NCBI RefSeq assembly: GCF_014779765.1
Contig: NZ_JACXZA010000005.1
Location: 495,013 to 559,012, forward strand
DNA from: Paenibacillus terricola
GTDB taxonomy: Bacteria > Bacillota > Bacilli > Paenibacillales > Paenibacillaceae
DNA length: 64,000 nt
Direction: 5' to 3'
A program made the position numbers and the translations under genes. The first letter of the stretch is position 1; the number at the start of each line of letters is the position of its first letter. The notes beneath the pieces are model-generated. The model was not told the origin of the DNA. It was given only the letters and a program-made list of their open reading frames with translations, and searched no databases. This document shows positions 11,366 through 21,289 of the stretch, piece by piece.

Positions 11366-12613
11366 TTATCGACGAGCATTAAGCGGTGATAACAGATCTA
11401 ATCGATCCGCAAGCTGTGACATCATATTGGACTCAATCGTTGATACAATCTGATCCGACGATACTTCAGTTGAAATGCGCCAGCCGATCTCCCGATCCCA
11501 AATGGCACTAGCCGCAGCATCGAGCGGCGTACGACGAACCTCATTCAATTTGTCATACCACTTCGAGATTTTCAGCGATTTCAGATAACCCTCTCTCTGA
11601 TGGAGCTGGAATGTCGAGAACTTCCACGCAAGATCCTTGTTATTGCTCTGCTTCGGAATCGCGGTCACCCAGCCGGTAATAATCGCATATTGATTGAGCG
11701 GAAGCCGAGTCGTCCTCCATAGATTGTAGGTATCCGGCGCCCAGCCCTGCAAGTGTGTATCGCCCCATTCTCCATTCGTAAACATCACGAGCTCGCCATT
11801 GCGAATGGCCTCCTGCCCGGATGCCTCCCAGATCGTTGCCCCAAGCGGCAGATTGAGCTTATTCGATTCCTTCGCAATTGCAATCGCAGAGACAAACTCC
11901 GTCGTATTGCGCGTAAACGAACCATCGTTGTTGAAGAACCCGTTCGACAAGTCCAACACCTGCAGCAAATCGGTCGGCTTCTGCATGATCCGTTTACCCT
12001 TTAATGCCAACCTCTTCGCCATCGACAGCCAGCGCTCGGGACTTTCCATATATTCCCCCAACTCTTCCGGATCATCCGGATAGCCATACTCTTTCATGAC
12101 GTCGGCCCGATAGTACGTGATCCCTGCGTGCAATATCTCCGGCATAAAAACGATGTGTTGACGATCCAATGATCGGAAATAGGACAACTCCAGGCCTGGA
12201 AAATAGCTGTTGATTACGGACTTTCCATCGTATGGCGCCAGATCCAAAGGCTCGAAGATATCATAGTCAATCAGTTCACGAATATGTGAATAATCGAACT
12301 CAATGAGATCTGGAGGACTCGGGCTATCAAGCGCCGCTAAAATATCTTGCACAGTGCTGTTGTTCGCTGAAGTCCATTCAATGTCAACTCCATAATTCTG
12401 CTCAAATCTATCGACATTGCCTTGATCGATTGCATTGCCTGACAAGATACGCAGAACCGGCTTGCTGTCCTGCTTCGTCTCGATATTGTCACTGATAACA
12501 GTAGGTTCCTCAACCACAGTCGACGCATTGCTGCAGCCAGCGAGAAGAAGCGCGAAGGCAGCAACAGTCGGCCATACACGGAGGCCCGCTCGCCGTAATA
12601 TCCGATTCATCAC
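11366..12613 (-). CDS. Extracellular solute-binding lipoprotein coupled to a GGDEF-EAL protein
   Basis: A 415-residue lipoprotein of the family-1 sugar-type solute-binding class. A signal peptide ends in a lipobox (LLLAGC), the cysteine of which would be lipidated, and a two-lobe binding fold follows (LRILSGNAIDQGNVDRFEQN; GELVMFTNGEWGD; WVTAIPKQSNNKDLAWKF). Such proteins normally feed ABC permeases, but no permease or ATPase gene is near. Its ATG overlaps the stop of the upstream GGDEF-EAL gene by four bases, so the two are translated together. The simplest reading is that this lipoprotein senses an external ligand and passes the state to the membrane-bound cyclic-di-GMP enzyme. That role is inference; an orphan binding protein serving a distant transporter is the alternative. 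Confidence 0.88.
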   Translation of the reverse strand: MMNRILRRAGLRVWPTVAAFALLLAGCSNASTVVEEPTVISDNIETKQDSKPVLRILSGNAIDQGNVDRFEQNYGVDIEWTSANNSTVQDILAALDSPSPPDLIEFDYSHIRELIDYDIFEPLDLAPYDGKSVINSYFPGLELSYFRSLDRQHIVFMPEILHAGITYYRADVMKEYGYPDDPEELGEYMESPERWLSMAKRLALKGKRIMQKPTDLLQVLDLSNGFFNNDGSFTRNTTEFVSAIAIAKESNKLNLPLGATIWEASGQEAIRNGELVMFTNGEWGDTHLQGWAPDTYNLWRTTRLPLNQYAIITGWVTAIPKQSNNKDLAWKFSTFQLHQREGYLKSLKISKWYDKLNEVRRTPLDAAASAIWDREIGWRISTEVSSDQIVSTIESNMMSQLADRLDLLSPLNARR

Positions 12614-15195
12614 ACTTCCCTCCCCTTACTCTCGTGATCCCATGCGAACCAGCTCATAATCTGAGCGGCAGGAACCGCCCGCCCATAATAATAGCCCTGA
12701 TGCAGCCAGCAGCCTGCTTCACCTAGCGCATCCGACTCTTCGATGGTCTCCACGCCTTCTGCGACAACCAGCCAGTTGCGCGACCGCGACAGCAGCATCA
12801 TTGTCTCGATAATGGAACGCTTATCCGAATCTTCGTGAAGGTCCTTCACGAAAGTTCGGTCGATTTTGAAGCCGTCTATCGGCATTCGATTAAGCATACC
12901 CAACGAGGAATATCCGGTGCCAAAATCATCGATCCATACCTTCACGCCCCGTCGCTTCAAGCGATGAAGCTCTGCAATAACGCGTTCTGGATACTTGGCG
13001 AACACTTCCTCCGTAATCTCTACCTCGAACAGATCCGGCGGCATGCCGGTTTCCTCAAGCAACTGCTCTAGATATCCGACAATGCCATGCATCTGGATCT
13101 GCGTCGGCGACAAGTTGATCGCCACCGGTGCTGGCGTTAGCCCTTGATCCAGCCATTCTTTCATCTGGCGGCAAGCTTCTTGCGCAACCCATTCCCCAAT
13201 CGGCTTCAACAGTCCACAACTCTCGGCGATCGGAATAAACTGCGCAGGTGAGACAAACCCGAATTCCGGATGCAGCCACCGCAGCAACGCCTCGATCGAC
13301 ACTAATCTCCCCAGTTCCTTGTTATAGATCGGCATGTAATGCAGTTGAATCTGATTGCGATCAAGCGCCTTATGCAGCTCGAACTCCAGCCGCATCTGCT
13401 GCGTGAGATCATTATCTGGCTTCTCGTAGAATCGATAACCATTGCCGCCCGCCGCCTTCGCTTCGTACATGGCAAAGTCAGCATTTTTCACAATCGTCTC
13501 TCTATCATCACCGCTGATTGCCGAAGAACTGATCCCCATGCTAGCTGTTACGAACAGCTCTTCCCCATTAATGAGGAATGGACGCTTTAACTTACTGATT
13601 AAATCCTCGGCAATCGTGCGCACTTCGCTGCGCTGCTTAGTAGAAACAAGTACGAACTCATCCCCGCCTAGGCGGGCGATGAAAGCGCGATCATTTACAG
13701 TCCGCAGAAGCTGGAACGACACTTGTTGAAGCAGCAAATCGCCTACTGCGTGACCAAGCGTATCGTTAATATGCTTGAACCGGTCCAAGTCGATGAACAC
13801 GACGTGGATTTCGTCTTCCGGACCTAGTTCGTCCATCACTTTCGTCAAATGCTCATTGAAATTCCGTCGGTTAGGCAGCCCTGTCAGCATATCGAGATAC
13901 GCCTGTTCACGGGACTCCATGAACATAAGGCCGAGCTTCTCTGTCACAGTCCTGAAGTTGCCAACCAGCGAGTTTATCTCCTCCAGCCGCGACTGCGGCC
14001 AACTCGGTGCAACGCCTGCTTTGACCTTATCCGGAATGCCATGCGATACGACCGCAAGCTTACGGACGCCCGTTATGAAGAAGCGATGAATAATGAGCGC
14101 GAACAGCCCGATAATCGCCGCTACATATAGACAACTCATCATCTGAGCATTGTAGACCGAATACACCTGCTCACGATACGTGTCTAGCGGAACCCGAACA
14201 TACAGCTCGAACTTCCCCATTTGGACAGGGTAGATGAAGGACATCTTCTTCCAACTGGATCCTGTCGTTATCAGCTCTGCCGCGTCAGGACTCCACATTC
14301 TCCGCTCGGAGAAATAGTTCTGCCAGTCGTCCAGCTTCAGCCAATCGTAATCATAGTTTGTACCGCCAATGGTGTGGATCAGCTTCCGTCCATCCTGCCC
14401 TATTAATACAGCCTCATAAGGATCAGAAGCTAAGACGTTGTTAATCATCCGTCTCACCGTTGCCATCTCCATATAACCATTCAAGCGAATGCCTCTTTGC
14501 TCCTCGGGCGACATCGTCTTCATGCCATCTTCAAGCGCAAGCGAGGCTTGATCTGCCGAATTATTAATTTCTTTAATGATGGTGTGCTTGTAGCTGTTGC
14601 TTCCACTTATGAGGAACAGAATCGATGAACCGATCATCGCTGCCGTCATCAAATGGATAAGCGCACGAGAAATACGAAGCGGTGGATTGACCGCAACCCC
14701 GCTCATTCTGTAGAAACGAGCTGGCGTATAATATACGAAAAGCTCGGAGAGCAGCACGTTACATAACCCGCATGCAGTTACGATGTACGTGTAGAATAAC
14801 ATCTCTTGATTGATCGCACCTGAATTGCCGCTAAGCAGCACATACATGGGAACGCCAATCAAGGCCCAGTAGATCGCGCCCGCCCCAATATATCCAAGCT
14901 TCGGCCAGCGTATGTTTAATGCAATAATAAGGGCTGCTTCCACCAGATGACTCCATAGCAAAAAGTCGACATTCTGCGTACCGATCAGCGCCCCATAAAC
15001 AAGCACAAGAAGCAGCAAGCCTGCCCGCCAGCCGAACCAAGCGACTGCGAGAAACAAGAAGCCTGCTGTAAACGATCCGCTAATGCCGAAGAGCGGAGAT
15101 ATCGGAATGGAGTAAGATATGTAGGCTAATAGTCCCATCAATAAATAGACGAAAACAATTTTTCGAAATAGAAATCCGCTAATCCGATTAGTCAT
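12610..15195 (-). CDS. Membrane sensor GGDEF-EAL cyclic-di-GMP protein
   Basis: An 861-residue protein. Residues 1-190 form about six membrane helices, residues ~200-345 form an extracytoplasmic sensor region between helices (possibly Cache-like), and another helix lies at ~350-372. A GGDEF domain has an intact motif RLGGDEFVL near residue 510, and an EAL domain has an intact EALLRW near residue 632 plus DDFGTGYSSL. Both diguanylate cyclase and phosphodiesterase sites look complete. A GGAGCAC-type ribosome site precedes the ATG. The 4-base overlap with the downstream solute-binding lipoprotein suggests a two-part sensory unit. It differs from the MHYT protein at 60-2138 in its sensor and probably answers a different signal. 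Confidence 0.93.
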   Translation of the reverse strand: MTNRISGFLFRKIVFVYLLMGLLAYISYSIPISPLFGISGSFTAGFLFLAVAWFGWRAGLLLLVLVYGALIGTQNVDFLLWSHLVEAALIIALNIRWPKLGYIGAGAIYWALIGVPMYVLLSGNSGAINQEMLFYTYIVTACGLCNVLLSELFVYYTPARFYRMSGVAVNPPLRISRALIHLMTAAMIGSSILFLISGSNSYKHTIIKEINNSADQASLALEDGMKTMSPEEQRGIRLNGYMEMATVRRMINNVLASDPYEAVLIGQDGRKLIHTIGGTNYDYDWLKLDDWQNYFSERRMWSPDAAELITTGSSWKKMSFIYPVQMGKFELYVRVPLDTYREQVYSVYNAQMMSCLYVAAIIGLFALIIHRFFITGVRKLAVVSHGIPDKVKAGVAPSWPQSRLEEINSLVGNFRTVTEKLGLMFMESREQAYLDMLTGLPNRRNFNEHLTKVMDELGPEDEIHVVFIDLDRFKHINDTLGHAVGDLLLQQVSFQLLRTVNDRAFIARLGGDEFVLVSTKQRSEVRTIAEDLISKLKRPFLINGEELFVTASMGISSSAISGDDRETIVKNADFAMYEAKAAGGNGYRFYEKPDNDLTQQMRLEFELHKALDRNQIQLHYMPIYNKELGRLVSIEALLRWLHPEFGFVSPAQFIPIAESCGLLKPIGEWVAQEACRQMKEWLDQGLTPAPVAINLSPTQIQMHGIVGYLEQLLEETGMPPDLFEVEITEEVFAKYPERVIAELHRLKRRGVKVWIDDFGTGYSSLGMLNRMPIDGFKIDRTFVKDLHEDSDKRSIIETMMLLSRSRNWLVVAEGVETIEESDALGEAGCWLHQGYYYGRAVPAAQIMSWFAWDHESKGREV

Positions 15196-15430
15196 GCTGT
15201 GCTCCTTCTAACTCGACGTTTGTAAGGTATATTGTCCGATTATTGTGGTAAATGAGCGCTTTTTGCACTCCTTTCGATGCATAAAGGTAATTCGGTTGAA
15301 TAATCTTTAAGTCCTACTCACTATTAACATCGGCTGTTAACATTCTATATTTCAGTGGGAAATTAGGAAGTACAGGAAAGATTTTCGTTTCGTTAACAAT
15401 TCCCTTTCGTTATGGACGGCCTAACAAATA

Positions 15431-15467
15431 AAAACAGCGATCCAGGAATGCTCCTGAACCGCTGTTC
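15431..15467 (-). terminator. Terminator of the nasBC operon
   Basis: On the minus strand AACAGCGGTTCAGGAGCATTC is followed by the pairing arm CCTGGATCGCTGTT and TTTATT. It begins directly after the nasC stop codon. Confidence 0.8.
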
Positions 15468-15470
15468 TTA

Positions 15471-17636
15471 TTATATTTCATAGGGATGATTCGATATAAA
15501 AGGCCTGATGCGTACCGCACATACTTTGAATCCAGGCATCCGGCACGTCGGATCAAGCGCCTGGTTCGTCAATACATTCACGTTCTGACTGTCGCCCCAA
15601 TGCATCGGCACGAATATGGTATCGTCTCGAATGGTACGCGTGATCCGGCAGCGAACGACGATCTCACCACGCCGCGATGCGACTACAGCCAACTTCCCGT
15701 CCGTTAAGCCATGCTGCTTCGCCGTCTTCGGATGCAGCTCCACGAACGATTCAAAATCCCGCGACGCAAGCGTATGGCTCCGCCGGGTTTGAACACCCGT
15801 TAAATAATGACTTAGCACACGCCCTGTTGTCAGATAGATCGGATACTCTTCGTCCGCCAGTTCCGCAGGCCAATGGTTATCGACCGCAATCAGCTCCGCG
15901 CGTCCATCCGCATGGGCGAAAGAGGCTTCGAACATGCGACCGATTCCTTCCTCTGTCGGATCCGGACATGGCCAGTAAACACCCTCCTCGCGCCGAAGTC
16001 GGTCATACGTAATGCCGTAGTAGTCTGCAATGCCGCCTCGGCTGGCGACCCGAAGCTCTTCGAAGATTTGCTCCGCATGCTCATATCGGAAATAAGTGCC
16101 GCGCCCGAGCCCATGAGCCAGCTCGCACAGAATGCGCCAGTCATTCTTCGCTTCTCCCGGAGCAGGACGATGCGCCTCCCGCAGCAGCACGCGCCCCTCC
16201 AGATTCGTCAGCGTACCTTCATTCTCCAAATAAGCCGTCACTGGCAAAATCAAATCGGCAGAGCGCGCGGTCTCCGACATGAACATGTCCGCTACGACGA
16301 GCAGATCAAGACGCTCCATCGCCGCTTGAACCAAGCTCGCGTTCGGATTCGACACAACCGGATTGGAACCCATGACGAGCAAAGCCCGTATGTCGCCCTC
16401 GTACACCTTCTCCATCATCTCGTAGGCTGATACGCCTTTGCCGGGCAGATCATTCGGGTCAACGCCCCATACGTCTGCAACATAAGCGCGATGCTCCGGA
16501 TTCTCGATTGAACGATACCCCGGCAGTTGATCAGCCTTCTGCCCGTGCTCGCGTCCGCCTTGCCCATTGCCTTGGCCGGTAATCGCGCCGTAACCGCAGC
16601 CAGGCTTGCCGATTTTGCCAGTCAACAGTACTAGGTTAATCAGGTTGCGTACCGCCATATAACCGTCTGTCTGCTGCTCTACGCCACGCGCGGTAAACAC
16701 CATGCCCGTATCCGCCTTGCCGAATGCCGATGCCGCTCTGCGAATCGAGTCCACGGGCACGCCGGTCATCACCGCGATCTCCTCGACCGACTGCTCCAGC
16801 AGATGCGCCTTCAGTTCATCATATCCACGCGTACGAGCCCTTACGAACGCTTCATCGACGAGCCCTTCGTCCAGCAGCGATCGCAGCATTCCATTGGCAA
16901 GCGAAGCGTCCATCCCTGGCCGTACCTTCAGATGCAGGTCAGCCAGCTTCGACGTCCCCGTCTCTCGCGGGTCGATCACAATAATGAACGTTCCATTCTC
17001 CTTCGCTCTCGTAAAATACGGCATTAGCGTCGGCTGGCACTCCGCGATGTTCGTGCCGGCAAGCACAATGCACTTTGCCAGCGGAATATCCGACAATGGA
17101 TTCGTCAGACCGCGGTCGAGACCTAATGCCTTGCTGCCGGCCGACGCCGCAGCGGACATGCAGAACCTTCCGTTATAGTCGATATGCTTCGAACGAAGCG
17201 CGACTCGCGTGAACTTCCCAAGCAGATATGCCGTCTCATTCGTCAACGACCCGCCGCCATATACACCGATCGCATCAGCGCCGGACTCCTGTTCAATCTG
17301 CTTAAAGCGGTTAACGATTAACGCGATTGCACCCTCCCAGGAGATGCGTTCGAATCCACCCTCCCGCTTCACCAGCGGATATAGGATCCGATCCTCGCTG
17401 ACCGCATGCTGATAGGCGTTCATCCCCTTTACGCATAAGCGGCCTTCCGAAGCGCGATTCGGCTTCGCTTCAACGGCGTACTGCGCTTCTCCTCCAGCGC
17501 CGCTACCCGATTCGGTAAGCCTCATCTTGCATTGTACGCTGCAGAACGGGCATTGCGTCTCCATGACGAGCTCCGTAACTACCGCTCCGCCGCCATCCGC
17601 AGCGATGTGTTCACGTGGATATAGCGTCCTCTTCAT
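15471..17636 (-). CDS. nasC: Assimilatory nitrate reductase catalytic subunit
   Basis: A 721-residue molybdopterin oxidoreductase that reduces nitrate to nitrite in the cytoplasm. The N terminus has the [4Fe-4S] motif CPFCSVQCKM plus GRLCVKGMN. The molybdenum-cofactor domains follow (YGGGSLTNETAYLLGKF, RFCMSAAASAGSKALG, LAGTNIAECQPTLMPYF, GCGYGAITGQGNGQGGREHG), and the C-terminal dinucleotide-binding domain has LTTGRVLSHYLTGVQTRR. Length and layout match Bacillus subtilis NasC (about 710 residues); no twin-arginine signal is present, in line with an assimilatory enzyme. The start at 17636 forms an ATGA overlap with the nasB stop and has GAGGTGA upstream. It is the second gene of a GlnR/TnrA-type operon. 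No nitrite reductase or nitrate transporter gene lies in the window. Confidence 0.93.
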   Translation of the reverse strand: MKRTLYPREHIAADGGGAVVTELVMETQCPFCSVQCKMRLTESGSGAGGEAQYAVEAKPNRASEGRLCVKGMNAYQHAVSEDRILYPLVKREGGFERISWEGAIALIVNRFKQIEQESGADAIGVYGGGSLTNETAYLLGKFTRVALRSKHIDYNGRFCMSAAASAGSKALGLDRGLTNPLSDIPLAKCIVLAGTNIAECQPTLMPYFTRAKENGTFIIVIDPRETGTSKLADLHLKVRPGMDASLANGMLRSLLDEGLVDEAFVRARTRGYDELKAHLLEQSVEEIAVMTGVPVDSIRRAASAFGKADTGMVFTARGVEQQTDGYMAVRNLINLVLLTGKIGKPGCGYGAITGQGNGQGGREHGQKADQLPGYRSIENPEHRAYVADVWGVDPNDLPGKGVSAYEMMEKVYEGDIRALLVMGSNPVVSNPNASLVQAAMERLDLLVVADMFMSETARSADLILPVTAYLENEGTLTNLEGRVLLREAHRPAPGEAKNDWRILCELAHGLGRGTYFRYEHAEQIFEELRVASRGGIADYYGITYDRLRREEGVYWPCPDPTEEGIGRMFEASFAHADGRAELIAVDNHWPAELADEEYPIYLTTGRVLSHYLTGVQTRRSHTLASRDFESFVELHPKTAKQHGLTDGKLAVVASRRGEIVVRCRITRTIRDDTIFVPMHWGDSQNVNVLTNQALDPTCRMPGFKVCAVRIRPFISNHPYEI

Positions 17637-20050
17637 GAGCATTCACCTCGTATAGCCATTGACTGTCCAGCTTCGTTCTGGGCTCGCAACAGCAGTGCTC
17701 TGCGGCTGCGCGGATCAAGCGCCCGCTCTCGCAATGCAACAACGCCAATCCGCTCCAGCCACTGCCAGACCGGCTCACCATACAACGCTTCCTCCGCATA
17801 GAGCTGGAGAACGGCGGTTGCTATATCCACGACAGCTCGTTCTTCCGGCTCTGTCAGCAGCAGCTTCGCTTCCTTCACCTCAATGCCAGCAGAGCCGCCG
17901 ATGTACAACTCCCAGCCGCTTGGCACGCCAACGATGCCTATATCACGCACGAGCGAACCAGCGCGATGCAGCGGGCTTGCCGAGACCGCCGCGCTTACCG
18001 TCGTCGGCAGTTGCAACTGCTCCAGCCGTCGTTCCAGCGCGGCCCCCACAGCTATAGAGTCGCGCACAGCGCCTCGCTCGTAGGCAATACCGCCGCAAGT
18101 CACAACTGAAGCGACGGGTCGGCCGTACATATGAGCGGCAACCGGCCCGCCAATGGTCTGCGATACACCCGCCGCTTCAGCCGCCGACAGACCAAGCAGC
18201 TCCAACCGCCCGTCCCCGTTCAACTTCGCAAGCGGCACCTGATATCGCTCGATCGCATCCGCAATACGCCGCAGCTGGTCTGCCGTTGCCACGCCGCCAT
18301 ACAATCGCGGTTGAACCGCATAAGTGCCGTTTGCAAGCGCAGCATAGGCGCCGCCTTCAGCCAACGTGTCCGCCGCTTCCGTGTCGGCTGCCGCTGTCAG
18401 TGCGGCAGTCGAGACTTGATCCCGGCCATTCGCGCTTAATCGTCCCAGCACGCCGATATAATACCGAATCGCCGGACGGCAGAACATGCAGCCATCCGCC
18501 GTCTTCCATCCGAGCGCCGTCACCGCCTCACGGAAACTCGAAGTGCGACTTGCGGCAATCGCATCTTTCAACTGCTCGCGACTGAGCGTTGTGCAACCAC
18601 ATAACGGCGTCACCTGCACTGCGTCCTCGTCACCGCTTTCGAGCACGCACTGAAGCAGCGCCGATACTAGCGGCTTGCAGCCACCGCAGGAGCTTGCCGC
18701 CCGGGTGCATTCACGCACCTGCTCGAACGTTTCGAGCCCCTGCTCCCGGATAACAGCCGTTATCGTCCCTTTGCTGACGCCGTTGCAGGAGCAGATCGTT
18801 TCACTATCCGACAGCCCGCTCACATACTCGGTCGTGCCGCCTCCCGTTCCACCGCTGGAAGTGGGCGCCTCCTGCTGCAGAACGGAAATATCCGCTCCCT
18901 GCTTCACATAACCCAGCAGTTTATTGCTGTCTCCGCTGTCTCCGAACAAGACCGCGCCGACAATCCGGTTGTCACGAATGCCGATTTTGCGATAAGTACG
19001 GCGAATGCCGTCATAGGCCATCTGCATCGTCGACAATTGCGAATCTTCAATGTCGCCGACCGAGAATACATCCACGCCGGACACCTTCAGCTGTGAATAG
19101 AGCACTGAGCCATGATAACCTTCGGTATCTTGCTCGCAGATTGCTTGCGCCAGCACCTTGCCTTGTTCATATAACGGAGCGACTAGTCCATATACCATGC
19201 CCCGATGCTCCGCGCACTCTCCCACGGCATAGACATTCGGAGCACTTGTCTCCATGCGGTCGTTGACGACAATCGCGCGGTTTACCTCAATGCCGCTCTC
19301 CGCGGCAAGCCGTACATTCGGCTTAATACCAACTGCGATTACAACAAGATCGACGTTAAGCCTTGTGCCGTCTGTGAACTGGAGCGCCTCGACCCTTTTG
19401 CGGCCGATGATGCGATCTGTATTTTTCTCCAGCCAAATCTTCATGCCTTGCTGCTCCAGCTCTTGCCTTAGCATATTTGCCGCTTGAGGGTCCAACTGCC
19501 GATTCATCAAGTAGCGGCTGTTATGGATGACATGAACGTCCTCCATCCCGAGATTAAGCAGTCCTCGCGCAGCCTCCAGACCAAGCAGACCTCCGCCGAT
19601 GACAGCAGCACGTTTGTAATTAGCCGCGGTCTCCACCATCAACTCACAATCCTTCATGTTACGAAAAGCGGTAACGCCCGGCTTATCGATGCCAGGCAGC
19701 GGCAGCATGAAAGGAAGCGATCCCGTCGCGATAATAAGCTTGTCATAAGCGGTCGTTCTTCTGCGATCCGTGTGTACGACCTGGTTCGCCGTATCTATAT
19801 AGGTAACCGTCTCGCCCGTATAGAGGGTAATGCCTCGCTCTTCGTACCAGGCGTACTCATTGATCGTAATGGCCGACATGGGCGTATCGCCTTGCAGCAC
19901 CTTGGATAGCATGATTCGGTTATAGTTCGGATGTGGCTCCGCGCCAACAATCGTAATGTCGAACGCATCGGGACGCAGCTTCAATATCTCCTCGATGCAG
20001 CGGACGCCTGCCATCCCGTTTCCGATGAGAACTAGCTTCTGCCTCGTCAT
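17633..20050 (-). CDS. nasB: Assimilatory nitrate reductase electron-transfer subunit (NasD-like fold with degenerate siroheme site)
   Basis: An 805-residue flavoprotein expected to pass NAD(P)H electrons to NasC. Domains in order: FAD-binding Rossmann fold (GNGMAGVRC, residues 11-19), NAD-binding fold (GGGLLGLEAARGL, about 150), two BFD-type [2Fe-2S] domains (CSCNGV...CGGCK and CGCTTL...CMFCRP), then a C-terminal ferredoxin-like plus sulfite/nitrite-reductase-like region. In true nitrite reductases this last region holds four cysteines for the [4Fe-4S]-siroheme centre. Here the matching stretches read TCGGIAYERG and SASPLHRAG, so three of four cysteines are missing. It therefore cannot be a normal nitrite reductase, and its pairing with nasC supports the NasB role. 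GGAGGGG precedes the ATG. Two GlnR/TnrA boxes lie upstream. Confidence 0.88.
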   Translation of the reverse strand: MTRQKLVLIGNGMAGVRCIEEILKLRPDAFDITIVGAEPHPNYNRIMLSKVLQGDTPMSAITINEYAWYEERGITLYTGETVTYIDTANQVVHTDRRRTTAYDKLIIATGSLPFMLPLPGIDKPGVTAFRNMKDCELMVETAANYKRAAVIGGGLLGLEAARGLLNLGMEDVHVIHNSRYLMNRQLDPQAANMLRQELEQQGMKIWLEKNTDRIIGRKRVEALQFTDGTRLNVDLVVIAVGIKPNVRLAAESGIEVNRAIVVNDRMETSAPNVYAVGECAEHRGMVYGLVAPLYEQGKVLAQAICEQDTEGYHGSVLYSQLKVSGVDVFSVGDIEDSQLSTMQMAYDGIRRTYRKIGIRDNRIVGAVLFGDSGDSNKLLGYVKQGADISVLQQEAPTSSGGTGGGTTEYVSGLSDSETICSCNGVSKGTITAVIREQGLETFEQVRECTRAASSCGGCKPLVSALLQCVLESGDEDAVQVTPLCGCTTLSREQLKDAIAASRTSSFREAVTALGWKTADGCMFCRPAIRYYIGVLGRLSANGRDQVSTAALTAAADTEAADTLAEGGAYAALANGTYAVQPRLYGGVATADQLRRIADAIERYQVPLAKLNGDGRLELLGLSAAEAAGVSQTIGGPVAAHMYGRPVASVVTCGGIAYERGAVRDSIAVGAALERRLEQLQLPTTVSAAVSASPLHRAGSLVRDIGIVGVPSGWELYIGGSAGIEVKEAKLLLTEPEERAVVDIATAVLQLYAEEALYGEPVWQWLERIGVVALRERALDPRSRRALLLRAQNEAGQSMAIRGECS

Positions 20051-20106
20051 CGCTTCCCCTCCAGGTTTCTTCTCCGGACCCTATCCCATTTGATCTCTAT
20101 ATATTA

Positions 20107-20123
20107 TGTAAAGATAGTTTACA
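20107..20123 (-). promoter_or_regulatory. Second GlnR/TnrA-type box (promoter-proximal)
   Basis: TGTAAAGATAGTTTACA is a palindrome that fits TGTNA-N7-TNACA exactly. It lies 57-73 bases before the nasB ATG, near or just after the predicted transcription start, where binding would block transcription. Confidence 0.6.
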
Positions 20124-20132
20124 TTCCGCTTC

Positions 20133-20184
20133 ATTCCACAATGACTTGTCATTTTATTTGATATGTATGTTAGAATATATAACA
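20133..20184 (-). promoter_or_regulatory. nasB promoter with upstream GlnR/TnrA box
   Basis: TGTTAGAATATATAACA (20168-20184) fits the GlnR/TnrA consensus TGTNA-N7-TNACA, including the A/T-rich core preferred by TnrA. On the minus strand a TGGAAT -10-like hexamer lies at 20133-20138, which puts the box centre about 50 bases before the predicted start, the usual position for TnrA activation. No -35 consensus is seen, as expected for an activated promoter. Confidence 0.7.
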
Positions 20185-20380
20185 TTAATCTCAATGTACC
20201 CCACTGTGAGGGAATAATCAATAGCGATTTAGCATCGTACAGCCGCGATCTTGGTGCTGAACAACGTCCGTTGTGTCAGTATACGTAACACAAAATTCAA
20301 TTTCGCTTTACAAACGTTTCGGTATCCGTCAATTCATCGAGCCAATCCGATTATTTCCTCGGAAATAGACAAAATAACGC

Positions 20381-20420
20381 AAAAAGCAGCCCCCGCCGTC
20401 GGTTCACGGCAAAGACTGCT
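20381..20420 (-). terminator. Terminator of the 20438-21289 gene
   Basis: On the minus strand AGCAG and GCCGT pair with ACGGC and CTGCT across a short internal loop, followed by TTTTT. It starts 17 bases after the stop codon. Confidence 0.7.
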
Positions 20421-20437
20421 GATTGGCGAGCTTTATC

Positions 20438-21289
20438 TTATTTTTGAACCAGTTTATCCCCGGACGCGTAGACAAACTCAGCAGGCTTGTCGTTAAAAGG
20501 AATGTACGCTTTGAACGTATTCGTTTCATTATTGTAAAGAATACCACCCTTCGCTTGCAGCAGCTCGCCCAAATTGACAGCCTCTAGCTGATCATCCTTC
20601 GGACGAACCAGAATGGCGTTAACCGGTATGCTGGTGTCGGAATAAACGAGTTCTTTGATGCCATCGTGATTCCAATCGCCGATCCACGTGTGATAGTTGA
20701 AGTACAGATTTTGCACCGGAATCCCATTCTCCAACCGTACGTATCGATCGATTGCACAATCTGCGCCACAAATACCCATTAGTCGACTATAGGTTGTGCC
20801 GAACAGATCAGCCTGATCGATCACAATATCCTTCTCGTATACATCACCGCCGATGGTACCCAACTCATAAATGCTATCACCCGCTAATAATCCAATGAAG
20901 CGTTCTGTCGGATCACGGTCTGGCTTCGTATAAACCCAATAGGTTTGATCTTCGAAATCAATGGTTCGAGTACGCTCACGCTCTGGAATACTGGAACTAG
21001 GCACTTTCTGAATAGAGGTTACTGCTTCCTCCAGTGGTCGGAAGGTTAGCTGCAACTCCTGAGGGAAGGTCATCTCTTCCTCTGGCTGTTCAGGGATCGT
21101 TGATTGATCAGGGGCCGCCACCTGTTCATTATTCGACTCTAACTCCGGATAATAGACTTTATTATTCGCATGCCCATCCGCAATAGCTGGCTGTTCCTGC
21201 CGCTGTTGTACAATTGTAACCGCGACAACCACGATCAGTGCCAGCGTAATAGCTCCCCCTGCCCATCCAAGCCAAACATCCTTCCTCAC
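20438..21289 (-). CDS. Membrane-anchored protein of unknown function
   Basis: A 283-residue protein that matches no family recognised by eye. Residues 8-28 form one N-terminal membrane anchor (GGAITLALIVVVAVTIV), followed by an acidic, proline- and glutamine-rich linker to about residue 75. A folded domain follows with two close cysteines (GICGADCAIDRY), and a short FG-GAP/EF-hand-like segment GDWNHDGIKEL that may bind calcium. The domain is predicted to sit outside the membrane. It is a single gene with its own terminator. It could be a sporulation or envelope protein, but nothing nearby supports a specific role. The start ATG begins MRKDVWLGW; a GAGGA-like ribosome site precedes it. Confidence 0.7.
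   Translation of the reverse strand: MRKDVWLGWAGGAITLALIVVVAVTIVQQRQEQPAIADGHANNKVYYPELESNNEQVAAPDQSTIPEQPEEEMTFPQELQLTFRPLEEAVTSIQKVPSSSIPERERTRTIDFEDQTYWVYTKPDRDPTERFIGLLAGDSIYELGTIGGDVYEKDIVIDQADLFGTTYSRLMGICGADCAIDRYVRLENGIPVQNLYFNYHTWIGDWNHDGIKELVYSDTSIPVNAILVRPKDDQLEAVNLGELLQAKGGILYNNETNTFKAYIPFNDKPAEFVYASGDKLVQK

Follow-up and report, generated by a model that had tools for sequence, protein, structure and literature searches.

Three GlnR boxes before nasB of Paenibacillus terricola and the helical phasing of GlnR box pairs in Paenibacillaceae

The nasBC locus and its GlnR boxes

The stretch of Paenibacillus terricola DNA analyzed here, in the following called the window (64,000 nucleotides), carries the genes nasB and nasC on its minus strand (Table 1). 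The name nasB is based on the domains of the encoded protein and on the neighboring nasC, and because of this place beside nasC we call its product an electron-transfer subunit. Its start codon lies at 20050 on the minus strand. Directly 3' of nasC a strong hairpin with a U-rich tail probably marks the end of the nasBC transcript, while a simple terminator scan of 15150-15520 listed no terminator. Further downstream on the same strand (11366-15195) follow a gene for a membrane GGDEF-EAL protein of 861 aa and a gene for a solute-binding protein, homologs of which are found after nasC in 6/6 genomes of the genus, with some of the matches ending at the fetched stretch. A c-di-GMP enzyme is conserved beside nitrate assimilation, here behind a strong terminator-like hairpin.

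Table 1. Features of the nasBC locus, in positions of the window.
Feature	Position	Strand	Remarks
Strong hairpin and U-rich tail directly 3' of nasC	15420..15470	-	fold -27.8 kcal/mol, z -8.8
nasC, assimilatory nitrate reductase catalytic subunit	15471..17642	-	NCBIfam NF047855, 1175.8 bits (cut-off 1100); overlaps nasB
nasB, 805 aa	17633..20050	-	NAD(P)H/FAD and BFD [2Fe-2S] domains, nitrite-reductase-like C-terminal part
Proximal GlnR box TGTAAACTATCTTTACA (minus-strand reading)	20107..20123	-	exact match; same place in 6/6 genus genomes, 1 mismatch in 2
Middle GlnR box TGTTATATATTCTAACA	20168..20184	-	exact in 6/6 genomes; begins 8 nt past the -10 element in each
Predicted transcription start	20186	-	inferred, set 7 nt past the -10 element
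Predicted -10 TACATT	20193..20198	-	TACAGT in 4/6 genomes
Predicted -35 TTGATT	20216..20221	-	inside the invariant 12-mer TCGCTATTGATT (20216-20227), 6/6 genomes
Distal GlnR box TGTTACGTATACTGACA	20274..20290	-	exact; found in 6/6 genomes, 1 mismatch in 2
Terminator-like hairpin after the upstream gene 20438-21289	20385..20420	-	1 found, 0.4 expected in shuffles

Upstream of nasB lies an intergenic region of 387 bp, followed by a gene (20438-21289) that points toward nasB and is separated from it by a terminator-like hairpin. Since this gene faces nasB and ends in such a hairpin, the boxes described below are not its promoter. When 19990-20450 was searched against Rfam for a leader RNA element, no match was obtained up to an E-value of 1.

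The box pattern TGTNA-N7-TNACA is a 17-bp palindrome with eight fixed bases, and the region before nasB holds three exact matches to it: TGTAAAGATAGTTTACA (the proximal box), TGTTAGAATATATAACA (the middle box) and TGTCAGTATACGTAACA (the distal box, 20274-20290). The first two had been named in an earlier sequence-only reading of this DNA, and their exact fit and centre-to-centre distance of 61 bp are confirmed here at 20107-20123 and 20168-20184; the third was absent from that reading. A degenerate box with one mismatch (20147-20163) was discarded because it is not kept in relatives. In the 387-bp region the mean number of chance boxes is 0.007, and among 20,000 dinucleotide shuffles 142 contained one box and none contained two or more. 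When one mismatch is allowed, the number of matches in the full window of 64 kb stays at chance level (15 found, 16.4 expected), and thus it is the clustering before nasB that carries the weight. With no more than eight fixed bases, the pattern occurs in its exact form 93 times in the genome, compared with 67 times for a reversed control, which would fit fortuitous AT-rich palindromes, or sites for another regulator or the upstream gene. However, the presence of three boxes in 387 bp argues against such an explanation, as does their conservation in six genomes with different upstream neighbors, while the orientation of the upstream gene and its terminator-like hairpin speak against sites of that gene; we consider this explanation very improbable. 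By sequence, with three exact matches to the palindrome, the cluster is a set of predicted GlnR/TnrA operators.

A protein search gave six genomes of the genus, this genome included, and in 6/6 of them the three boxes lie upstream of the nasB ortholog, including the pair that the sequence-only reading had proposed to look for in other Paenibacillus. Counted from the start codon, the distal box is found at -232 to -243, the middle box at -119 to -126 and the proximal box at -57 to -65; 14 of the 18 boxes are exact and 4 have one mismatch. The spacing between the middle and the proximal box is 61, 61, 62, 62, 63, and 61 bp, and that between the distal and the middle box ranges from 106 to 123 bp. 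Pairwise identity amounts to 0.76-0.78 within the boxes, 0.48 between the distal box and the -35 element and 0.41 between the middle and the proximal box, the latter being the least identical segment between the distal box and the start codon, with 1/46 aligned columns invariant. The upstream neighbor in turn varies, from a related same-strand ORF (this genome and G001) to divergent ORFs (G002, G003, G004) and other same-strand ORFs (G005). Since the boxes are kept while this neighbor changes, they serve nasB.

Within the family, a nasB ortholog was found in 30/394 genomes (E up to 1e-240), and the 24 of these from outside the genus were all inspected. In 18 of the 24, an open frame on the same strand, 250 codons or longer, has its end at most 107 nt upstream of nasB, and these 18 have no exact box within 600 nt (three have a box with one mismatch). 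In four genomes of other genera (L038, L040, L041, L044) nasB is preceded by a promoter-like element, and 14-16 nt past its -10 follows a box that is exact or has one mismatch. Of the last two, L048 has exact boxes farther upstream and L129 has none.

A gene for the cognate regulator is present. Two glnA genes of this genome score above the model cut-off, and the glnA of L069 is directly preceded by a GlnR-type gene encoding 137 aa. Against the TnrA model this protein gives an N-terminal match of 78 bits (cut-off 140), and none of its other relatives in the genome exceeds 32% identity. No protein of this genome scores above the TnrA model cut-off, and TnrA was consequently dropped as regulator of nasB. 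The GlnR-type protein ends in IQGQLSRF, which resembles IQGELSRF, the tail by which P. polymyxa GlnR binds the glutamine synthetase active site (PMC9249791). Before glnR, at L069 1480, lies TGTTA-N6-TTACA, one base shorter than the box, and no exact 17-bp box occurs in 1300-1530. That GlnR controls nas genes is already known (PMC9948412).

Promoter position relative to the boxes

The six genomes share the element TTGATT-N17-TACAKT, and in 6/6 of them 8 nt separate its end from the middle box. It agrees with 8/12 consensus bases, and no other element with at least 8/12 is found at a constant position throughout the six genomes; we treat it as a candidate for a weak nasB promoter. A simple sigma-A weight matrix ranks it top in 4/6 genomes. 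In this genome TTGAGA-N16-TAACAT, which overlaps the middle box, scores 10.7 and the conserved element 9.8, and in L006 two elements outscore it (10.7, overlapping the middle box, and 10.1). A pattern for this promoter with a box after it matched in 30/148 family genomes, among them 6/6 of the genus at nasB, while the reversed control gave 3 matches in all. The invariance around the -35 hexamer extends beyond the hexamer itself: the 14-mer TCGCTATTGATTRT has one copy per genome in the six genomes, only at nasB. The block TCGCTATTGATT as a general regulator site is ruled out by this restriction; it is possibly recognized by another factor specific for nas.

From the predicted start, the distal box is centred at about -96 (-108 to -113 in the relatives), the middle box, which begins at about +3, at about +11, and the proximal box, 65 nt upstream of the nasB ATG, at about +72 (relatives +72 to +74). 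The distal box precedes the predicted -35 by 52 bp here and by 64-69 bp in the relatives. Consequently, the distal and the middle box sit either side of the predicted promoter in 6/6 genomes, as in the nif-type two-site layout, while the middle and the proximal box both lie downstream of it. The sequence-only reading had assigned the flanking role to the latter two, which is probably wrong: the conserved element places both on one side of the promoter, the very arrangement which that reading had said would refute it, as judged by a predicted start rather than a mapped one. It had also expected an activating box at about -50, which does not agree with centres of -96 to -113, +11 and +72 to +74, and a TnrA-type activating box some 50 bp before the predicted start occurs in none of the six genomes. 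Thus, box positions are easily misread unless the promoter is located first.

One might nevertheless keep close to this earlier layout and place the promoter between or in the named boxes, so that the box at 20168-20184 would activate from upstream and the one at 20107-20123, located at the core promoter or over it, would repress. In favor of this, TnrA classically activates from a box near -50. Furthermore, the proximal box contains a -10-like stretch, TATCTT with a score of 5.8 in the window, and such a stretch recurs there in 6/6 genomes (5.8, 5.4, 8.2, 5.1, 9.6 in P. kobensis, and 4.4). Because of this recurrence a second promoter is kept as a rival. However, its -35 partners vary in sequence and in spacing (16-19 bp), the AT-rich core of the box makes -10 matches easy, and a -10 in the proximal box would put this box over the -10 and the middle box at about -72, not at -50. 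The -10-like hexamer that had been claimed about 50 bases past the 20168 box could not be confirmed, given the low identity and the nearly complete lack of invariant columns between the boxes, which also speaks against a promoter there. With the -10 between the boxes, the best scores in the window are 10.7, for the element that overlaps the middle box and does not place that box at -50, and then 5.4; hexamer and weight-matrix scans of the six genomes found nothing with at least 8/12 consensus bases that recurs between the two boxes. Other GlnR pairs of the family allow for such a layout: among 115 oriented pairs the best promoter lies between the boxes in 15 and has its -10 end inside the downstream box in 19. 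However, 54 pairs have it downstream of the two boxes and 21 have it upstream of them. Altogether we regard a promoter between or in the named boxes as rather unlikely.

Helical phasing of GlnR box pairs

The middle and the proximal box of nasB are in phase: their spacing of 61-63 bp corresponds to six helical turns (R 0.90 over the six genomes). Phasing of the distal and the middle box was in turn rejected (R 0.18). The same kind of spacing is found far beyond nasB. A search of 98 family genomes for exact pairs 42-102 bp apart gave 243 pairs, compared with 13 for the reversed control (summed by eye). All 75 pairs listed outside this genome were used; 19 genomes from five genera contributed them, and they include repeated orthologous promoters. 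Among these listed pairs, 71/75 deviate by at most 2 bp from a multiple of 10.5 bp, where 41% are expected, with R 0.79 and a best period of 10.6. The null throughout is a uniform spacing from 42 to 102 bp, of which any intrinsic 10-11 bp sequence periodicity is not part.

When the listed pairs are reduced to the distinct spacings per genus, 15/18 of these spacings are in phase, a value reached by 7/20,000 random draws. To count each orthologous promoter once, the 75 listed pairs and 6 pairs of this genome (nasB excluded) were grouped by flanking protein and shared DNA, using single linkage and automatic ORF calls, into 25 approximate clusters. With one pair per cluster, 22/25 are in phase (median over random picks; R 0.69), and 0/100,000 draws were as high; among the clusters with a pair outside long ORFs, 15/17 are in phase (8/100,000 as high). 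The best period over 6-20 bp is 10.8, and the three out-of-phase clusters have single spacings of 66, 78, and 90 bp. Within single clusters the spacing shifts by whole turns, for example 43, 52, 62, 73, and 84 bp.

In this genome seven exact pairs at 42-102 bp were found, the same number as counted for it in the 98-genome search, with spacings of 61, 61, 73, 74, 74, 85, and 96 bp. In 60 nasD-like upstream regions, hand-picked from the match list and sharing some genomes with the 98-genome search, 25 of 29 adjacent exact-box spacings (30-140 bp) are in phase and four are not (56, 59, 60, and 92). Outside the family the effect is weaker: of 89 pairs, compared with 17 in the reversed control (both summed by eye), 49 were among the pairs listed, and 35/49 of these lie within 2 bp (R 0.41, 18/50,000 as high, best period 11.0). 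Among the open-licence papers listed in searches for earlier reports, none describes helical phasing of GlnR sites in its title or abstract opening.

Three exact boxes also occur in the nasA/nasD region of this genome (L068 5507-6263), and in nasA/nasD and related promoters the 3' half of the box can act as -35 hexamer, with a good -10 following 17 bp on. Another phased array, of three exact boxes 74 and 73 bp apart, precedes a gene for a periplasmic binding protein (Peripla_BP_5; L066 10256-10403).

Taken as comparative sequence evidence, the phasing suggests same-face contact between GlnR dimers. Since whole-turn spacing is a habit of GlnR pairs in the family, the 61-bp distance of the two boxes named at the outset becomes meaningful. 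For the Paenibacillaceae we propose, as a view that we hold to be evenly balanced between right and wrong, that the regulon-wide unit of GlnR would be a phased, contact-making pair. In such a unit, four to nine helical turns would separate two dimers bound to one side of the DNA, which would be linked either by direct contact or through a single glutamine synthetase (GS) oligomer; insertions and deletions between the sites would be tolerated only as whole turns. nasB would be an instance in which the pair lies wholly downstream of the promoter, as a block to elongation or escape.

Known systems and a proposed control of nasBC

The closest layout known to us from the sources consulted is that of the nif promoters. 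In P. polymyxa WLY78 nif, 58 bp separate site I from the -35 downstream of it, and site II is located 24 bp beyond the start (PMC6191146). As at nasB, nif of WLY78 and of P. riograndensis SBR5 has one box ahead of the -35 and another shortly after the start. Compared with nif as described there, the downstream box of nasB begins at about +3 instead of +24, its three boxes are exact while nif site I of WLY78 is degenerate, and a third, phased box is added at about +72. In addition, unlike the nif hosts, this genome has no nifH above the family cut-off, and nif genes were dropped as origin of the layout for this reason. The earlier suggestion of GlnR control with a nif-like two-site logic is reasonable in its principle, but its partners would be the distal box upstream and the middle box downstream.

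B. subtilis offers a second comparison: the consensus and the target genes are the same and the response is to nitrogen, and PMC4475385 describes a single TnrA site between the divergent nasA and nasB. In contrast, the genome studied here has no TnrA above cut-off, and its nasB has three boxes, none of them about 50 bp before the predicted start. The regulator and the pathway are shared with the nas genes of P. polymyxa WLY78, where, according to PMC9948412, GlnR binds the nasA, nasD1, and nasD2EF promoters and the shared nasA-nasD1 region holds two boxes. While those boxes are shared by divergent genes, nasBC has its own three-box promoter region, with no divergent sharer in the window.

For nasBC we propose a control region with three GlnR operators, in which the phased pair of middle and proximal box would repress and the distal box would possibly activate; we put its chances just short of even. 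GlnR would bind the middle and the proximal box together on one helix face. Because the two sites share this face, the two dimers could touch directly or be bridged by one GS oligomer, and the bound pair would block promoter escape or elongation. At high nitrogen, feedback-inhibited GS would strengthen the hold of GlnR, while GlnR bound to the distal box may aid a weak promoter when nitrogen is low, like nif site I. The repressing half of this proposal is better supported than the activating half, which is a guess by geometry. Against the three operators speak the unphased spacing between the distal and the middle box and the mismatch in the distal box of two genomes.

Alternatively, the three boxes might only repress. 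nasBC would then be turned on simply as GlnR repression is lifted, and another activator might act at the invariant TCGCTA block. Pure repression agrees with the P. polymyxa transcripts of nasA and nasDC, whose levels are reduced by GlnR under both nitrogen conditions (PMC9948412), a result that speaks against activation and for repression. The lack of a box at -50 from the predicted start in the six genomes points the same way. In addition, 31 of the 115 oriented pairs (counted by eye, orthologs repeated) have the best -10 end at +39/+40 relative to the beginning of the box, which thus contains the -35, a repressing position. However, the distal box is retained in 6/6 genomes at a considerable distance (-96 to -113) from the core promoter, and nif site I activates from a similar position (PMC6191146). 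Furthermore, the wild type outgrew the glnR mutant on nitrate and nitrite (PMC9948412), which leaves room for a positive role of GlnR. Repression by all three boxes thus appears unlikely to us, yet clearly more plausible than a promoter between or in the named pair. In PMC9948412 the ChIP signal at nasA, nasD1, and nasD2EF of WLY78 is reported under nitrogen limitation, not excess, which is a poor fit to repression mainly at high nitrogen. Together with the recurring -10-like stretch in the proximal box, this signal takes weight from the three-operator proposal and adds some to both alternatives, the promoter flanked by the named pair and repression by all boxes.

Joint action of two GlnR sites on one DNA has been envisioned before. 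Looping at nif through feedback-inhibited glutamine synthetase was proposed for P. riograndensis by Fernandes et al. (2017), as cited in PMC6191146 and PMC10789242, while P. polymyxa mutants were reported to give no support for it by Wang et al. (2018; PMC6191146). Phasing as observed here is a prediction of such contact. However, looping was proposed for nif and is disputed, whereas the support presented here is comparative and comes from many promoters. The rarity of out-of-phase spacings (4/75 of the listed pairs) and the jumps by whole turns between orthologous promoters are evolutionary evidence for paired sites on the same face. Phasing consequently bears on the disputed looping question, which can be tested by half-turn spacing changes at a simple promoter like that of nasB.
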